A stretch of DNA of 58,085 nucleotides from Bdellovibrionales bacterium (GTDB lineage: Bacteria > Bdellovibrionota > Bdellovibrionia > Bdellovibrionales > JAGQZY01), in contig JAGQZY010000006.1 of assembly GCA_020435205.1 (NCBI GenBank), forward strand, positions 1 to 58,085, in the 5' to 3' direction. Shown here one piece after another: positions 13,079 to 19,238 of this stretch. Position numbers and translations under genes: made by a program. How positions within the stretch are numbered: position 1 is the stretch's first letter; each line of letters opens with the position of its first letter. Under the pieces are notes generated by a model. The model searched no databases, was not told the origin of the DNA, and saw only the letters and a list, made by a program, of their open reading frames with translations.

Positions 13079-13107
13079 AAAATTCTTGCCCACCTTTACT
13101 GGCGGGC
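13079..13107 (-). terminator. Possible weak terminator at the end of the pseudopilin operon
   Basis: On the minus strand GCCCGCC (13101-13107) can pair with GGTGGGC (13088-13094) across six bases, followed by AAGAATTTTA. The hairpin overlaps the stop region of the last gene and the U-run is short and displaced, so this is tentative. Confidence 0.3.
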
Positions 13108-14280
13108 CTGATAGTTTAACTTTGGGGATAGCCAAATATCAAAGATATCACCCTTCTTAAAGTGACCTGACTTATCTTGAAAAACAAAGTGACTTCTTTC
13201 TTTAGCTTTGGCCCGATTACCATAGGTATACTCTTGATTAGATCGATAGTTAAGCGAGATGAATCGAATTCCTTTTTCTGATAGCTTAACAAGTTCGCTG
13301 GGCTCCGAAACTCCATTGCCATTTTTATCTCTCCATAAAACCAACTCATGAAACAACTTGTCTTTGTGATCGATTAATTTATCCATATTTGAATCGAAAC
13401 GAGCTAAATCATCAAACCCATTTTTAAAGCTCTTGCTTTCACCAAAAAGTTCGTGCCCACTATTTATTTTTCCATCTTTATTGGTGTCATGGGCCAAAAA
13501 GTAAATCCTTTCCTTAGCTGATGGCCAATAAAAGGCTGAGGCATCTTCGTTTACAGAAAATGTAGTATGGTTTTCAAAGCTAACATCTAAGAAGCTATCT
13601 TCAATAAATAAGGCCAATGGAGAATAGTACCCACCACAAAATCCATTTTCCCCTGGAAAGTTCGCATAAACCTCAACCTTTCCAGTTTTATTATCTACTT
13701 TCGTTCTCACATCAGCAGATATTGGGCCATTCGCAGCTCTATACTGACCTGTTATAGAATGCTGTACATCCTGTATGAATCGAATATCCCCAATCAACTG
13801 TTCCCTCTGAGACGTCAGCACATTTCCAAACTTGTCGAGTTCCGCTTGCCCAATTTCTAAATCAAGAATATTTACTTTAAGTACATTCCCCACCCCAGAA
13901 GCTAAGGCTGCTGAAATAACTTTGCCATCCTTATCCATTATTTTAACCTTATCGAGGATAGATTCACTGTCTCTTACAACAATTTGCGATGGAAACTCGA
14001 CCTGAATGCTTTGGTAGGCTTCTTTTTCCACCTTGGGCAAATCCACATGCATTGTCACTCGAGTATTCCTCCCAATTGGATTTTTGACTCCACGAAGATT
14101 TCGAGAGTAGCAGGTAGCATAGAGATTAATTTCAAGTCCCGATGTGATGGCCACACTGCCTTTCGCAGACAACACTAAGTCGGTCATGCTCGCACCAGCA
14201 TTGGGGAGCACACTCACTTGCTGAGCCCAGACCGACAAACTAAAAAGACTTATGCTAAAAAATGAAATAAATTGGATCAT
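13096..14280 (-). CDS. Exported protein with three EF-hand-like calcium-binding loops
   Basis: A signal peptide covers about residues 1-19 (cleavage after VWAQ or nearby). The N-terminal 220 residues are beta-rich and unrecognised. Residues 255-345 match a widespread extracellular calcium-binding arrangement: DTNKDGKINSGHELFG at 265-280, DSNMDKLIDHKD at 296-307 and WRDKNGNGVSEPSEL at 316-330, each with the Dx[DN]xDG-type spacing seen in EF-hand or dockerin-like loops. It follows the PilW-like gene by 13 bases with GGAGA before the ATG, so it is the last gene of the pseudopilin operon. By analogy with calcium-binding PilY1 in minor-pilin operons it could act at a pilus or pseudopilus tip; that is inference, as there is no PilY1 sequence likeness that I can see. 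Confidence 0.85.
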   Translation of the reverse strand: MIQFISFFSISLFSLSVWAQQVSVLPNAGASMTDLVLSAKGSVAITSGLEINLYATCYSRNLRGVKNPIGRNTRVTMHVDLPKVEKEAYQSIQVEFPSQIVVRDSESILDKVKIMDKDGKVISAALASGVGNVLKVNILDLEIGQAELDKFGNVLTSQREQLIGDIRFIQDVQHSITGQYRAANGPISADVRTKVDNKTGKVEVYANFPGENGFCGGYYSPLALFIEDSFLDVSFENHTTFSVNEDASAFYWPSAKERIYFLAHDTNKDGKINSGHELFGESKSFKNGFDDLARFDSNMDKLIDHKDKLFHELVLWRDKNGNGVSEPSELVKLSEKGIRFISLNYRSNQEYTYGNRAKAKERSHFVFQDKSGHFKKGDIFDIWLSPKLNYQARQ

Positions 14281-14293
14281 ACAATCTCCTTAA

Positions 14294-15265
14294 TTAGTTT
14301 GTACCAGCTTGGTTATAAATTTGAACATCAACAATATTTGATGTTACGCTCTTCCTGGAAAAAATAACCTTTTCAATGCCAACAGCAACAATACTTGAGC
14401 GCACACCATCTCCTGCGTCAAAAGTTCTACGTAATACATTTTCGTCTTTCCCGTTATATTCTTCTTGATCAAATTCATAAGTAATTATAGCTACAGGCGC
14501 CAAAATCAAAGTTGGAGATCCTCCACCCATAGCGGGAACTTTTCTTAAAAAATCATCTTCTGAACTATAAACTTCTTTCTTTGTCAGAGGGTTTGAATAG
14601 TCAAACCTCACCTTAGCTCCACTCACTGGTGCCAGTCGGTTGCCACCTAGCTGCCCCAGATAGGATGGAATCTTAGGTTGCTGCTCTAAGGAGCAGAACC
14701 CCTTATTAGTTTGTGGGCGTAAAAACACTGGTGAAAATAGATAAAGGTAAGATTGTTCTTTCCAGATCTCTGGATTTTGTTTCGTTACTTGATCGCCATT
14801 ATTTAATGAAATAAAGCTCAATGATCCACTTTTAAAAGGATCTTTACTAGCTGGACCTACACTATAAGCATTGACTGGATTAATAAAGACTGGAATTTCT
14901 CTTTTTGTTGATAAAGCCAAGAAAGTAAATTTCTTTTGTCTAGAATCCTCGGAAAGAATAATTTCTCTTTTTGCTAAGTCTTTTGATTTCGGTGTCGGAC
15001 AACCAGGAAGATATTGAAAGAAATTAAGTCCTGAGTCGTCAACTTGGTAGACATTGTTGAATGATGGCGCAACTTGAATGAGATCCGTCCATAAAAATTT
15101 CATGGCCACTTCTTTATCAAGAATTTTAAGGACTTTTTCTTCTTTGAGGGCTAAAGACTTATTATAAGAATTAAAAAACACCCCCACGCCTGCCATAAGT
15201 ATACTGACAACAGCCAAGGTCATAATAAGTTCGACTAAAGAAAGGCCTTTGTTCCCTTTCATCAT
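14294..15265 (-). CDS. Prepilin-like protein, PilW/GspJ type
   Basis: The N-terminus MMKGNKG followed by LSLVELIMTLAVVSILMAG is a class III signal: prepilin peptidase cleavage after Gly7, Glu at mature position 5, then the hydrophobic helix that packs in the pilus core. The remaining 290 residues are a globular domain with two cysteines near the middle. Size and position after a PilV/GspI-like gene suit a PilW or GspJ minor pseudopilin located at the inner membrane and then in the fibre tip. It overlaps the preceding gene as ATGA and shares the GGAG site. Whether it belongs to a type IV pilus or a type II secretion pseudopilus cannot be told from this window, as no core pilus genes are present. 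Confidence 0.85.
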   Translation of the reverse strand: MMKGNKGLSLVELIMTLAVVSILMAGVGVFFNSYNKSLALKEEKVLKILDKEVAMKFLWTDLIQVAPSFNNVYQVDDSGLNFFQYLPGCPTPKSKDLAKREIILSEDSRQKKFTFLALSTKREIPVFINPVNAYSVGPASKDPFKSGSLSFISLNNGDQVTKQNPEIWKEQSYLYLFSPVFLRPQTNKGFCSLEQQPKIPSYLGQLGGNRLAPVSGAKVRFDYSNPLTKKEVYSSEDDFLRKVPAMGGGSPTLILAPVAIITYEFDQEEYNGKDENVLRRTFDAGDGVRSSIVAVGIEKVIFSRKSVTSNIVDVQIYNQAGTN

Positions 15266-15753
15266 CTAGCTCCAAATATCATGTGATAATCTCTATGGGA
15301 ATTTAATGAATCCGTTTCAATTTCGTAGACTCTTAAAGTCAATTTAAGCAGCCCAGGAGTCGTCGCTATGGGCTCAATAATAAATCCAGCTCGCCCTGGG
15401 CACTTAAGACACTGATCCACTTCGTAGATACCATCTCTATCCCAAGCTAGAGGCATTCTCTCCTTTTTAAGCATAGCTTCTTTCACATTTTCAGGATAAT
15501 TTTTAAAATGAGCCTGGAAAACCTTTGGGTTATTTCGAATAGAGTTAATGAGATTGACAGCTACTTTTTCATTGTAGTTCTTTGATAAAATTCTCTGCAT
15601 GGTTGATTCCATAGAAATCAATACTTGAGCCATGACAACAATAATAATAGAAATTATAGCCATGGCCACAACAGCTTCTATAAGACTACTACCTCTATTG
15701 TTCAGTCGTTTTTGAAAACCAATTTGTTGCTGGTGCTTTTCCACCAAAGTCAT
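15262..15753 (-). CDS. Prepilin-like protein, PilV/GspI type
   Basis: A 163-residue protein with a 21-residue basic leader ending NNRG, then SSLIEAVVAMAIISIIIVVM, giving Gly at -1 and Glu at +5 after prepilin peptidase cleavage. The short globular part has a CLKC motif. Length and leader fit PilV or GspI minor pilins, which with PilW/GspJ and PilX/GspK form the priming tip complex. It overlaps both neighbours by four bases (ATGA at each junction), implying translational coupling and fixed stoichiometry in one operon. Confidence 0.85.
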   Translation of the reverse strand: MTLVEKHQQQIGFQKRLNNRGSSLIEAVVAMAIISIIIVVMAQVLISMESTMQRILSKNYNEKVAVNLINSIRNNPKVFQAHFKNYPENVKEAMLKKERMPLAWDRDGIYEVDQCLKCPGRAGFIIEPIATTPGLLKLTLRVYEIETDSLNSHRDYHMIFGAR

Positions 15754-18464
15754 TGGCTCCCCCTTCCTAGTTCCTTTAAGACAAAGTTCTTAGGCCTAAA
15801 TTTACAACTTGTACGACTGGCTGCCTCATCGATCATGCCACAGTCCGGATCAACGGAGGTCCATGTGAATGGGTTGGCCTTTTCTCTCAAAGAGATGGGG
15901 TGACATCGGTAGTGATTGCTCAAATTTACAATACTGGGGTTGGGATGCCAAATTGGGTCAGGTAGGGTCACACATTCTCCGCCCTTTAAGGGCTTCAATA
16001 TCCCCACCTTTTGCAATTCAAGCACAGCCTGCGGGTGATAGATATTGCTCCACCAGATGCCAGCCCTCAAGGCTGAAGGATCAATGGAAAGGCGATTTGT
16101 CACCACCGTTCCGACAATTTTTAGAGGTTTTGAACGGGGGGCAATGGTAAAGGATTTGCAATTGAGAAACCCCGCCACGAAGGTTGCATCTGGCATGACT
16201 ATGCACCGATTAACAATAGAGCGGACTTTGAAAGAAGGCTTGTCGCCGGCCTCAAGGCGGGTGATATACCAAGTCCCATCAAATGGATCCGCAAAAGTCC
16301 ATGAGTGCACCGTTTGCTCAGAAAATGAGATATCCCAGTTTACAGATTCAAAAGAAAATCCAGAAGCTGGATCCGAGCAACGCACCTCTAGTTCCCCATA
16401 ATTAAAAGCTGTATCGACGGGATCCTCAATAGGTTCCGTGGAATTAGGTGCTATCCAACGATCTTTATGTAAGTGAGTTTTTAAATTAAATTGATCTGAC
16501 CAACGATTAAAATCCAGAGTGATACCTCGTGAATAACCTTTAAAACCCGTGGGCTCTTTAGGATCGTCATAATCGCGAACATCATCACCTTTTTCAGTCC
16601 CCACATCATAGGCAAGTAGACTAATGCGGATATCTTGATCATCAAAAGTTTTTTGATTAGTGAATTGAATATCAAAAGTAGCCTGATTGAATTGAGGAAA
16701 TCCACCCATCATTTTATCTTTTAAAACCAAATCAATTTGAGGTGGATTTCTTTCTTCTTCTAAAGCCCTATTGTAGGTATCTAGATCTCTTTTAGCTTGA
16801 CTGAGTTCCCATTTCTTAGCGTCTATCTCTTTTCGTTCGGACCAAATTTTTGATTCCAGTGAAGAAATTTCTCTTTCCAAATCGGATATCTTGTCCTTGA
16901 GGCTTTCAATGAGGTCTTTATCTTGGTCTTTTTCTTTTTTATGAAACTCATGCTCAAGACGCTCTTTAGCTTCTCTCAAATGCCTTTTTTTGTCATCTAT
17001 GCTTCCTTCAAGAGATTTGATTTCTTGTTGAAGATCCCAAATTGTTCTTTCTAAATTTGAAATCTTATCTTTCGTTTCATTGACCTTTCTTACTGCATTA
17101 TCAACTTGGGTAAAGCGTGGCTGAAAAGACAACTGAGTGTTTTTATGTAGATCAGCTTCCACCCAATGACTACTTCCAATCTTAATCTGCACCCTAGCAA
17201 TAGATTTAGAGTTTTTTGCCGACAAAGTGGGCTTTACCCAAAAAGTCCCCTCTTCTTTAGTAATATCGACTTTAACAGATTTTTGCTCAGTGAAACGATT
17301 CCATAGAGAAAGGCCCAGGTGGACTTTATGCTCTCCTTTCCAAGAGTTTGAGCTGATTTCACGACCAAGAAGGGAGGACCGACTGGTCATGAAGAGATCC
17401 GAAGAGGCCAAAGACATTTTAATACATTTCTCCATAAGGTCAGAGCCAGGAGGTTCGCCAACTAACCTTCCAGACAGATAATCAAGGCCAATGTCTCTAT
17501 TCCCAGTCAGGGTCACACCTCGCTTGAATCCACCAAGGCCTTGAATATCACTATAAAATCTTTCATCCTGCCCCCCATTACTATCTGGCACATAGGGCAG
17601 ATTAGATTTTCTTAAAATTCCGTTCCCCAAAAAAAGATTTTCCGTGAAGGTGACAGGCGAGTATCCACCTGTAGGCAAATGAACAGACCCATTGACAAAA
17701 ACAGGGCTGTCAAAGATCAGCCCCGCATCACTTTCACTCCCTGTGGGAATGGCGGAGTCTCCTTGCTGAGGACCAATACTCTTTCCTAGATGAAGATCAT
17801 TGGCAACCACCAGTGCAAAGGAACTGAGCTCCCTCGGTACAATAAGGGACATTGATTTTAGACGGCTCGTTATGGCTCCACCTAGGGGGCGAATGAGAGA
17901 AGCTTTTATCGATACATAAACTTCTGATCCCTTAGAAAATATCACATCATTCTCAACTCTTTGGATCTCAATAGCTATGCTATCAATTTTTCCTCTTTCG
18001 AGGTGCTCTACAATGGTGTGCAGCGGGTGACTTGAAGTCATATCTTTCAAAGAAATCACACCCTCGATATAACTCAAGTCTACGGGTGCTGAGACTTTGA
18101 TTGGAACCCCTCGACTTCGCATATCGCTAATGGCTTGCAAAGATTTTGAGTTCAAGAGCAATCGTTCAACATTGCGTGGATGGGATAGATCACATTTAGA
18201 GTCCCTTAGCCATGTTTTTGAAAAGCACCAACGCTGCTGAATGGCCGTAGCAGTGTAATCAATAATAGAGTTGAGAACGATATCCTCATCTATGGCGCCT
18301 TGAAAATCTTGACTCATTTTGGCTTGGTTAATGAGATAAAAGCTAAAGTAAGAAACACTCAACCCAACTATGGCCGTGATGGCCGCTAAGTTGAGGAGCA
18401 CTCCGCCCTTTTGTGAGCACCAAACTCTCTTTTTAAAATATGAGCCGCATACGTGATTAAACAA
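15750..18464 (-). CDS. Large PilX/GspK-like membrane-anchored protein with internal coiled coil
   Basis: A 904-residue protein whose start resembles PilX or GspK: a basic leader, QKGG, then a hydrophobic helix (about residues 21-45) without Glu at +5, as in GspK. Residues 60-450 and 580-904 are predicted extracellular and beta-rich with several cysteines. In between, residues 455-575 form a long heptad-like charged coiled coil (Leu, Ile, Glu and Lys rich) that is not usual in minor pilins, and the protein is about three times the size of PilX or GspK. The TTG start at 18464 has AAAGGGGGA eight bases upstream. First gene of the four-gene operon; the function of the coiled-coil insert is unknown. 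Confidence 0.75.
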   Translation of the reverse strand: MFNHVCGSYFKKRVWCSQKGGVLLNLAAITAIVGLSVSYFSFYLINQAKMSQDFQGAIDEDIVLNSIIDYTATAIQQRWCFSKTWLRDSKCDLSHPRNVERLLLNSKSLQAISDMRSRGVPIKVSAPVDLSYIEGVISLKDMTSSHPLHTIVEHLERGKIDSIAIEIQRVENDVIFSKGSEVYVSIKASLIRPLGGAITSRLKSMSLIVPRELSSFALVVANDLHLGKSIGPQQGDSAIPTGSESDAGLIFDSPVFVNGSVHLPTGGYSPVTFTENLFLGNGILRKSNLPYVPDSNGGQDERFYSDIQGLGGFKRGVTLTGNRDIGLDYLSGRLVGEPPGSDLMEKCIKMSLASSDLFMTSRSSLLGREISSNSWKGEHKVHLGLSLWNRFTEQKSVKVDITKEEGTFWVKPTLSAKNSKSIARVQIKIGSSHWVEADLHKNTQLSFQPRFTQVDNAVRKVNETKDKISNLERTIWDLQQEIKSLEGSIDDKKRHLREAKERLEHEFHKKEKDQDKDLIESLKDKISDLEREISSLESKIWSERKEIDAKKWELSQAKRDLDTYNRALEEERNPPQIDLVLKDKMMGGFPQFNQATFDIQFTNQKTFDDQDIRISLLAYDVGTEKGDDVRDYDDPKEPTGFKGYSRGITLDFNRWSDQFNLKTHLHKDRWIAPNSTEPIEDPVDTAFNYGELEVRCSDPASGFSFESVNWDISFSEQTVHSWTFADPFDGTWYITRLEAGDKPSFKVRSIVNRCIVMPDATFVAGFLNCKSFTIAPRSKPLKIVGTVVTNRLSIDPSALRAGIWWSNIYHPQAVLELQKVGILKPLKGGECVTLPDPIWHPNPSIVNLSNHYRCHPISLREKANPFTWTSVDPDCGMIDEAASRTSCKFRPKNFVLKELGRGSQ

Positions 18465-18486
18465 TACTTAGGTCCCCCTTTCTTTC

Positions 18487-18632: not shown

Positions 18633-19184
18633 CTACAATTGGCCAAAAAACTCGATGGCAGCATCCGTCGCCCAATCTTGGATGCCAATGATTTTTTTCA
18701 CGAGCTTACCTTGGCTATCAAAGATATAACCCTCTGGCAGAGTGTTCACCCCAAAACTCTTGCTAATGCTTTTATCCTTATCGAGAGTAACAATCATATT
18801 CTGCCGATAGCCATCAAAAGCCTCAATAAATTTGCGTACATCCATGACTTCGTCATCATGGGAGAGTGCAAGCAGTACCACCTTTTCAGGGTAGGCATCC
18901 AATAGCTTAATCAAAGAAGGAAATTCATCCACGCAAGGTGTGCACCAAGTGGCCCAAAAACTAATGATTATAATTTTGTCTTTAAAGTCTTTGATGTCAT
19001 AGGCTTTACCCTCAATGGAAGTAAATTTTAAAGGCAGAGCAAAAACACCCTGCTCCTCAAGGGTGTCCATAATTTTATAAGACTCCGGCAATTTATCTTT
19101 AGCAGATTCTGTCGATTCCCAGTATAGGGCTCCGCCGCTGATAACAATTGTTAAAATAATAATGAGTCCAAAAATTTTCTTCAT
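18633..19184 (-). CDS. TlpA/ResA-like thiol-disulfide oxidoreductase
   Basis: A 183-residue membrane-anchored thioredoxin-fold protein: an N-terminal hydrophobic segment at residues 5-22, then a periplasmic domain with the active site WATWCTPC (Cys81 and Cys84). A cis-Pro is likely in VNTLPEGYIF. Such proteins reduce or isomerise disulfides, for example in cytochrome c maturation; partner proteins cannot be named here. The ATG at 19184 with AGAGG just upstream replaces an earlier in-frame codon that has no site. It lies downstream of the rplQ terminator and upstream of the pseudopilin promoter region, so it is probably an independent unit. Confidence 0.88.
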   Translation of the reverse strand: MKKIFGLIIILTIVISGGALYWESTESAKDKLPESYKIMDTLEEQGVFALPLKFTSIEGKAYDIKDFKDKIIIISFWATWCTPCVDEFPSLIKLLDAYPEKVVLLALSHDDEVMDVRKFIEAFDGYRQNMIVTLDKDKSISKSFGVNTLPEGYIFDSQGKLVKKIIGIQDWATDAAIEFFGQL

Positions 19185-19238
19185 ACTGCCTCTTTGAATC
19201 GTTCTACCACAAAGGAAAGACCAAGTCTTTTTGGACAT

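Follow-up and report, generated by a model that had tools for sequence, protein, structure and literature searches.

The four genes at 13096..18464 on the minus strand of a Bdellovibrionales contig (JAGQZY010000006.1, assembly GCA_020435205.1; the window is its whole stretch of 58,085 nucleotides) probably form one tip cassette for a type IV pilus-like filament, in which three pilins, P1 to P3, carry a calcium-folded, non-cleaving relative of the FrpC self-processing module (SPM), P4, as a cap or adhesin. The open reading frames lie in a tight cluster and encode proteins of 904, 163, 323 and 394 residues (P1, P2, P3 and P4), which confirms the minus-strand operon proposed in an earlier sequence-only reading of this DNA. 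The ATGA coupling claimed there for the prepilin-like genes holds for two of the three junctions: P1/P2 and P2/P3 are 4-nucleotide overlaps, while P3 and P4 are separated by 13 nucleotides. Such overlaps are also the most frequent layout in 51 distinct complete operons (29 for P1/P2 and 30 for P2/P3). New in this study are the tip reading, the SPM identity of P4, the loss of its aspartate and the near-obligate linkage of the genes throughout the phylum; what had been reported before is the operon as such, as a predicted complex, with its importance in Bdellovibrio bacteriovorus HD100.

P4 (13096..14280; all features are on the minus strand) is a non-pilin protein that is probably exported, as a putative Sec-type signal peptide covers residues 1-19 (14224..14280; recognised by eye, the N terminus of the model being of low confidence). 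It has no Pfam or NCBIfam family assignment, and the EF-hand matches in the Pfam scan all stay below threshold. A profile of 32 P4 homologues, however, finds the FrpC SPM (PDB 6SJW) at E=1.8e-26, and together with the adjacency of P4 and P1 in 60 genomes this puts the cluster and the SPM match far beyond chance. The structural model of P4 leads to the same module, with a Foldseek match to 6SJW at E=7.7e-10 and, besides two FrpC entries, nothing below 0.06; residues 221-390 (13111..13620) superimpose on the FrpC SPM with Z=20.0 and a root-mean-square deviation of 3.0 over 157 residues (VIA-align). The alignment with the precursor structure, 6SJX, begins at model residue 218, position -2 of the chain, and places Ser220-Pro221 (13618..13623) at the scissile Asp414-Pro415 bond of FrpC. 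Upstream of this module the model shows a beta-sandwich domain, residues 41-210 (13651..14160), weakly similar to Ig/CnaB-type domains of Gram-positive pilins; I dropped the attempt to name it, the best structural Z of 5.7 being too weak. Cys57 and Cys215, both invariant in the 32-sequence alignment, may form a disulfide.

The SPM of FrpC from Neisseria meningitidis is disordered without calcium and folds upon binding four calcium ions, and its anhydride arises at Asp414; according to the same paper, the fold occurs only in some RTX proteins (PMC7078468). The sequence-only reading had noticed three calcium-type loops in P4, and their positions stand, whereas the generic EF-hand protein they suggested has to give way, on the evidence of the profile, Foldseek and structural alignment, to the three calcium loops of an FrpC-type SPM. 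By alignment, loop 1 (residues 265-276, 13453..13488) is the counterpart of FrpC D462-E474 (PMC7078468) and loop 3 (residues 318-329, 13294..13329) that of D521-E532, while the ligand positions of loop 2 (residues 296-307, 13360..13395), D296, N298, D300 and D307, are invariant in 53 of 53 operon-type homologues; the counterpart of the fourth FrpC calcium site looks degenerate. The structural tryptophan pair of FrpC, W451 and W519, is likewise kept (W252 in 52 and W316 in 53 of 53), as is D381, the counterpart of FrpC D579, in all 50 homologues in which it is aligned. At the scissile position, in contrast, serine replaces aspartate in 49 of 51 homologues, followed by the proline (P221) in all 51. 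Thus fold, loops, tryptophan pair and proline are common to P4 and the FrpC SPM, but Asp414 is not, nor is the surrounding large RTX protein, in place of which P4 has a Sec-type signal and a pilin operon. As the proline, the tryptophan pair and loop 2 are conserved and the aspartate has become serine, a frame that calcium would fold has been kept and the self-cleaving residue lost, so that, judged by sequence, P4 holds an SPM-fold relative and not an active SPM.

A single operon-type homologue (L055:2968-4215) has Asp-Pro where the scissile bond would be, preceded by a short insertion (CGSTVLPPSSDPL). This protein, and the intact proline, W316 and D381 elsewhere, could be taken to mean that the domain still performs calcium-triggered covalent chemistry that would anchor the tip on prey or on P1; however, the FrpC anhydride arises from the very aspartate that nearly all P4 homologues have exchanged for serine, which makes such chemistry the least probable of the explanations considered here.

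The remaining three proteins were claimed to be prepilin-like, and this holds for P2 and P3 through the Pfam N_methyl family, whose cut-off both exceed, and for P1 through its leader, seen by eye, and its model helix. P2 (15262..15753) is a minor pilin of PilV/GspI type (N_methyl E=1.3e-5), with PilV as the closest named family (TIGR02523, E=3.8e-7, below the curated cut-off). P3 (14294..15265), a minor pilin at the PilW/GspJ position (N_methyl E=2e-5), matches nothing but the generic prepilin signal, with TIGR02532 over its cut-off. When 33 P2 and 34 P3 homologues were scanned, the family picture was that of the window's own proteins. P1 (15750..18464), recognised from its reading frame, start site, model and homologues, is a giant minor pilin at the PilX/GspK position. 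It starts with TTG at 18464, preceded by AAGGGGG about 9 nucleotides upstream (18474-18480), and has a prepilin-type leader of 20 residues (18405..18464) with a predicted cleavage between QKG and GVLLN, a pattern shared by its homologues. The lack of a pilin-type N-terminal helix in P1 had been named beforehand as an observation that would speak against a pilin; the AlphaFold model (14 sequences, mean pLDDT 73.6) shows such a helix at residues 22-76 (18237..18401), beginning just after the predicted G20-G21 cleavage site, next to several beta-rich regions and a helical hairpin at residues 455-572 (16749..17102). The hairpin (455-509 and 516-572) is the 120-residue coiled-coil insert noticed earlier, and its structural matches are coiled coils only. 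Because it varies among the aligned homologues and is absent from some, I regard it as an accessory arm.

A prepilin leader and a hydrophobic N-terminal helix are thus found in each of P1, P2 and P3. Ordinary pilin subunits have a glutamate at position +5 after the cleavage site, Glu5, and its absence is the mark of the tip-most subunit, at the GspK or PilX position. This residue is present in all readable homologues of P2 (50 of 50) and P3 (49 of 49), and in none of P1 (0 of 47).

The linkage of these genes was examined in 141 genomes of the order and in a broader set from the phylum. The order sample contains 64 full-length P4 genes in 37 genomes, and for 63 of these genes P1 lies no more than 8 kb away on the same strand; P1 homologues are present in 38 genomes. 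In the broader set, all 24 further P4 genes (23 genomes) adjoin P1. Over the phylum this amounts to 60 genomes with 88 full-length P4 genes, of which 87 adjoin P1, the sole exception being located on a contig of 4.9 kb, and the regular occurrence of the fourth gene apart from the others, which would have spoken against a common system, is not what is observed. Three apparent P4 genes without P1 (L053, L056 and L058) were cut by the end of the stretch or contig, and longer stretches resolved two of them. Likewise, 55 of the 60 operons retrieved have all four genes, and the remaining five are truncated in the same way. In eight cases of the order sample P4 precedes P1. The operon is present in one to four copies per genome; in two Bdellovibrio-genus genomes (L065, L066) it stands in tandem duplicate. 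Between P1, P2, P3 and P4, pairwise distances show a strong correlation (Mantel r 0.88-0.94; no permutation above 0.25). Outside the phylum the C-terminal domain of P4 was seen alone, within other proteins, and the SPM-like domain occurs alone in other proteins of the genome of the window as well.

In HD100, two copies of the operon were identified, Bd2209-Bd2212 and Bd2723-Bd2726, with the gene order, sizes and homologous proteins of the window and 27-35% identity to the proteins of the window. Their proteins measure 384, 325, 162 and 901 residues and 414, 328, 153 and 995 residues (with alternative starts for two), and the identities (39.14, 36.56 and 41.36%), together with the lengths, match the values for Bd2723-2726 and Bd2209-2212 in Table 3 of PMC12034629. 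The published accounts present both as predicted complexes made up largely of hypothetical proteins (PMC12034629, PMC6561027). According to PMC12034629, each operon is predicted to form a four-protein complex (interface predicted TM scores, ipTM, 0.837 and 0.852) in which the hub is the largest protein, the homologue of P1; P1 is likely to be the hub in the window too. The same study reports that the operons are expressed in attack phase, that predation is lost on insertion in Bd2210, Bd2211, Bd2212 or Bd2723, and that Bd2209 bears the gene name frpC. A text search of PMC12034629 found no mention of calcium, SPM or pilin tip, and a pilin-tip or SPM reading of these complexes was not found in the literature searched. 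The transposon mutant Bd2210::tn, hit in the P3 homologue, was negative for prey attachment, killing and rounding, with the attachment defect confirmed by microscopy, and Bd2726, a P1 homologue, is required (PMC6561027). The HD100 complexes and the Bd2210 mutant lend outside support to the suggestion of the sequence-only reading that the operon encodes a tip complex of its own with which prey would be recognised; the location at the tip and the adhesin role of P4 are putative.

Bd2726 is also among the putative cyclic-di-GMP binders needed for predation (PMC6561027), and surface sensing by PilY1 has been reported in Pseudomonas; the complex could therefore be pictured as a surface sensor in the first place, reporting contact with prey, and as an adhesin only in the second. 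I consider this very unlikely, as the Bd2210 mutant fails already at attachment and the Pfam and NCBIfam scans found no sensor domain in the operon proteins.

Which filament would carry the cassette can be narrowed down from the gene content of the genome of the window, which has type IVa pilus genes (PilB, PilT, PilM, PilN, PilO and a secretin), a type II secretion system (T2SS) and a Tad-like system. The T2SS has its own GspG, GspH, GspI, GspJ and GspK, so the operon is an extra set and the core T2SS tip was rejected as an explanation. An accessory T2SS pseudopilus tip, or P4 as a secreted effector leaving through it and not a surface adhesin, would be compatible with P1, large and without Glu5, at the GspK position, and with some P2 and P3 members resembling GspI and GspJ about as well as PilV and PilW; nonetheless it appears improbable in view of that set, of the nearly constant tie of P4 to P1 and of the published HD100 models, which put the P4 homologue in a complex with P1. 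Among the matches listed for P1 there was none to the T2SSK or NF037980 profiles, the true GspK of this genome being encoded at another place, and PF03934, as a marker of GspK, has low sensitivity, as it misses the GspK of the window's own genome.

The main competitor of a type IVa tip is the tip of a Tad pilus (type IVb/c, Kil-like), by analogy with the KilL-KilM-KilN Tips of Myxococcus. In a predator, Herrou et al. 2025 (PMC12075869) show that Tad tips are interchangeable and include one giant pilin, KilN; they also describe a structural analogue in B. bacteriovorus, which the main text leaves unnamed. By sequence, these Tips were not found outside myxobacteria. The two systems have in common that a genome carries several paralogous cassettes, that each cassette includes one giant pilin and that there is a role in predation; a Tad-like system is present in the genome of the window, and TadC is important for attachment too (PMC6561027). 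On the other hand, the Kil Tips, as published, consist of three TadEFG-type pilins only, without a fourth, SPM protein; and the leaders of P2 and P3 are of type IVa/T2SS style (N_methyl), while the Tad locus of the genome holds its own short pilin-like genes. A Tad tip thus seems rather unlikely, though less so than the other alternatives. PF13629, used as a Tad marker, misses the genome's own CpaC-like secretin and is too insensitive for an analysis of co-occurrence; the general family scans of P1 to P3 gave no match to TadE, TadF or TadG.

For the type IVa pilus the known comparison is the minor pilin-PilY1 tip complex of Pseudomonas and Myxococcus (PMC7541494), which likewise combines minor-pilin genes with the gene of an exported calcium-type non-pilin. 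P4 differs from PilY1 in its SPM fold, its length of 394 residues and the lack of the PilY1 domain, and P1 is far larger than PilX. P4 had been called not PilY1-like by eye, and rightly so: there is no match to T4P_PilY1 (PF05567), and PilY1 was rejected as an identity for P4. In the 141 genomes of the order PilY1 was found in none, while the same search was positive in five of five controls. PilO is present in 125 of them, so nearly universal that it has no discriminating power. This lack of PilY1 matches, with PilO so common, fits P4 in the place of PilY1 on a type IVa pilus, and the best reading is that P4 works like PilY1, though unrelated, in an interchangeable minor-pilin tip complex.

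In the type IVa tip cassette that I favour, prepilin peptidase would cut P1, P2 and P3, whose N-terminal helices would then bundle and start the filament. P1 would take the tip-most position, that of PilX or GspK, because it lacks Glu5, and its large exported part would hold the Sec-exported P4. Once outside the cytosol, P4 would fold around calcium by means of a domain descended from the FrpC SPM, and since self-cleavage depends on a residue that this domain no longer has, P4 could act as a rigid calcium-dependent cap or adhesin with a stiff binding surface. Bdellovibrio would need such cassettes for prey attachment. I infer the tip position, the use of the type IVa pilus, calcium binding and prey as the ligand, and the same role, predation included, would be assumed for the organism of the window.

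Several observations weigh against this scheme. In the genome of the window, none of the pilus machinery genes is located with the operon. Some relatives with type IVa pili do not have it, namely a genome of the same genus (G072) and one of the genus Bdellovibrio (G008), so the pilus does not generally depend on it. The Pfam, NCBIfam and family scans gave no match of P1 to a pilin family, and in its fold search the coiled-coil hairpin drowned out everything else, which leaves the search uninformative on the rest of the protein. The P4 of the window has histidine at the end of loop 1 and, in loop 2, lysine at the usual place of glycine; its calcium affinity may therefore be low. The correlated divergence of P1, P2, P3 and P4 is due in part to shared descent.

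For the question of how Bdellovibrio recognises and grips its prey, a pilus-tip cassette with an SPM-relative cap would give two published, predation-linked complexes of hypothetical proteins a concrete identity, with which specific tests become possible. The SPM homology of P4 also extends the fold beyond RTX proteins to proteins of pilin operons, with the cleavage residue lost and the frame kept. More tentatively, and with the odds somewhat against it, a self-cleaving calcium module may across much of the phylum have been turned into a non-cleaving, calcium-folded cap that replaces PilY1 at the ends of predation pili, with the one to four interchangeable cassettes of a genome serving for different prey.

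Some further observations concern the surroundings and relatives of the operon. Directly upstream and on the same strand lies a thioredoxin-like gene of ResA/TlpA type (18633-19238), and P1 and P4 have conserved cysteines; this neighbour is not kept in relatives, and since the inspected loci have other genes there, I left it out of the system. Two Bdellovibrio-genus genomes, G008 and G018, have type IVa pilus genes and miss P1 and full-length P4. The operon-less genome G072 encodes a coiled-coil protein of 1391 residues with an SPM-like domain (Ser-Pro; L073:4404-8579), and another SPM-like domain is found in a protein of 743 residues encoded just upstream of an operon copy (L084:2287-4518). 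Elsewhere in the genome of the window (G000, contig C156, L198:5432-8082), a PilX-like protein of 585 residues with a HYDIN-type Ig-like domain is accompanied by a PilW-like protein of 304 residues, a pilin pair that is possibly another tip cassette.

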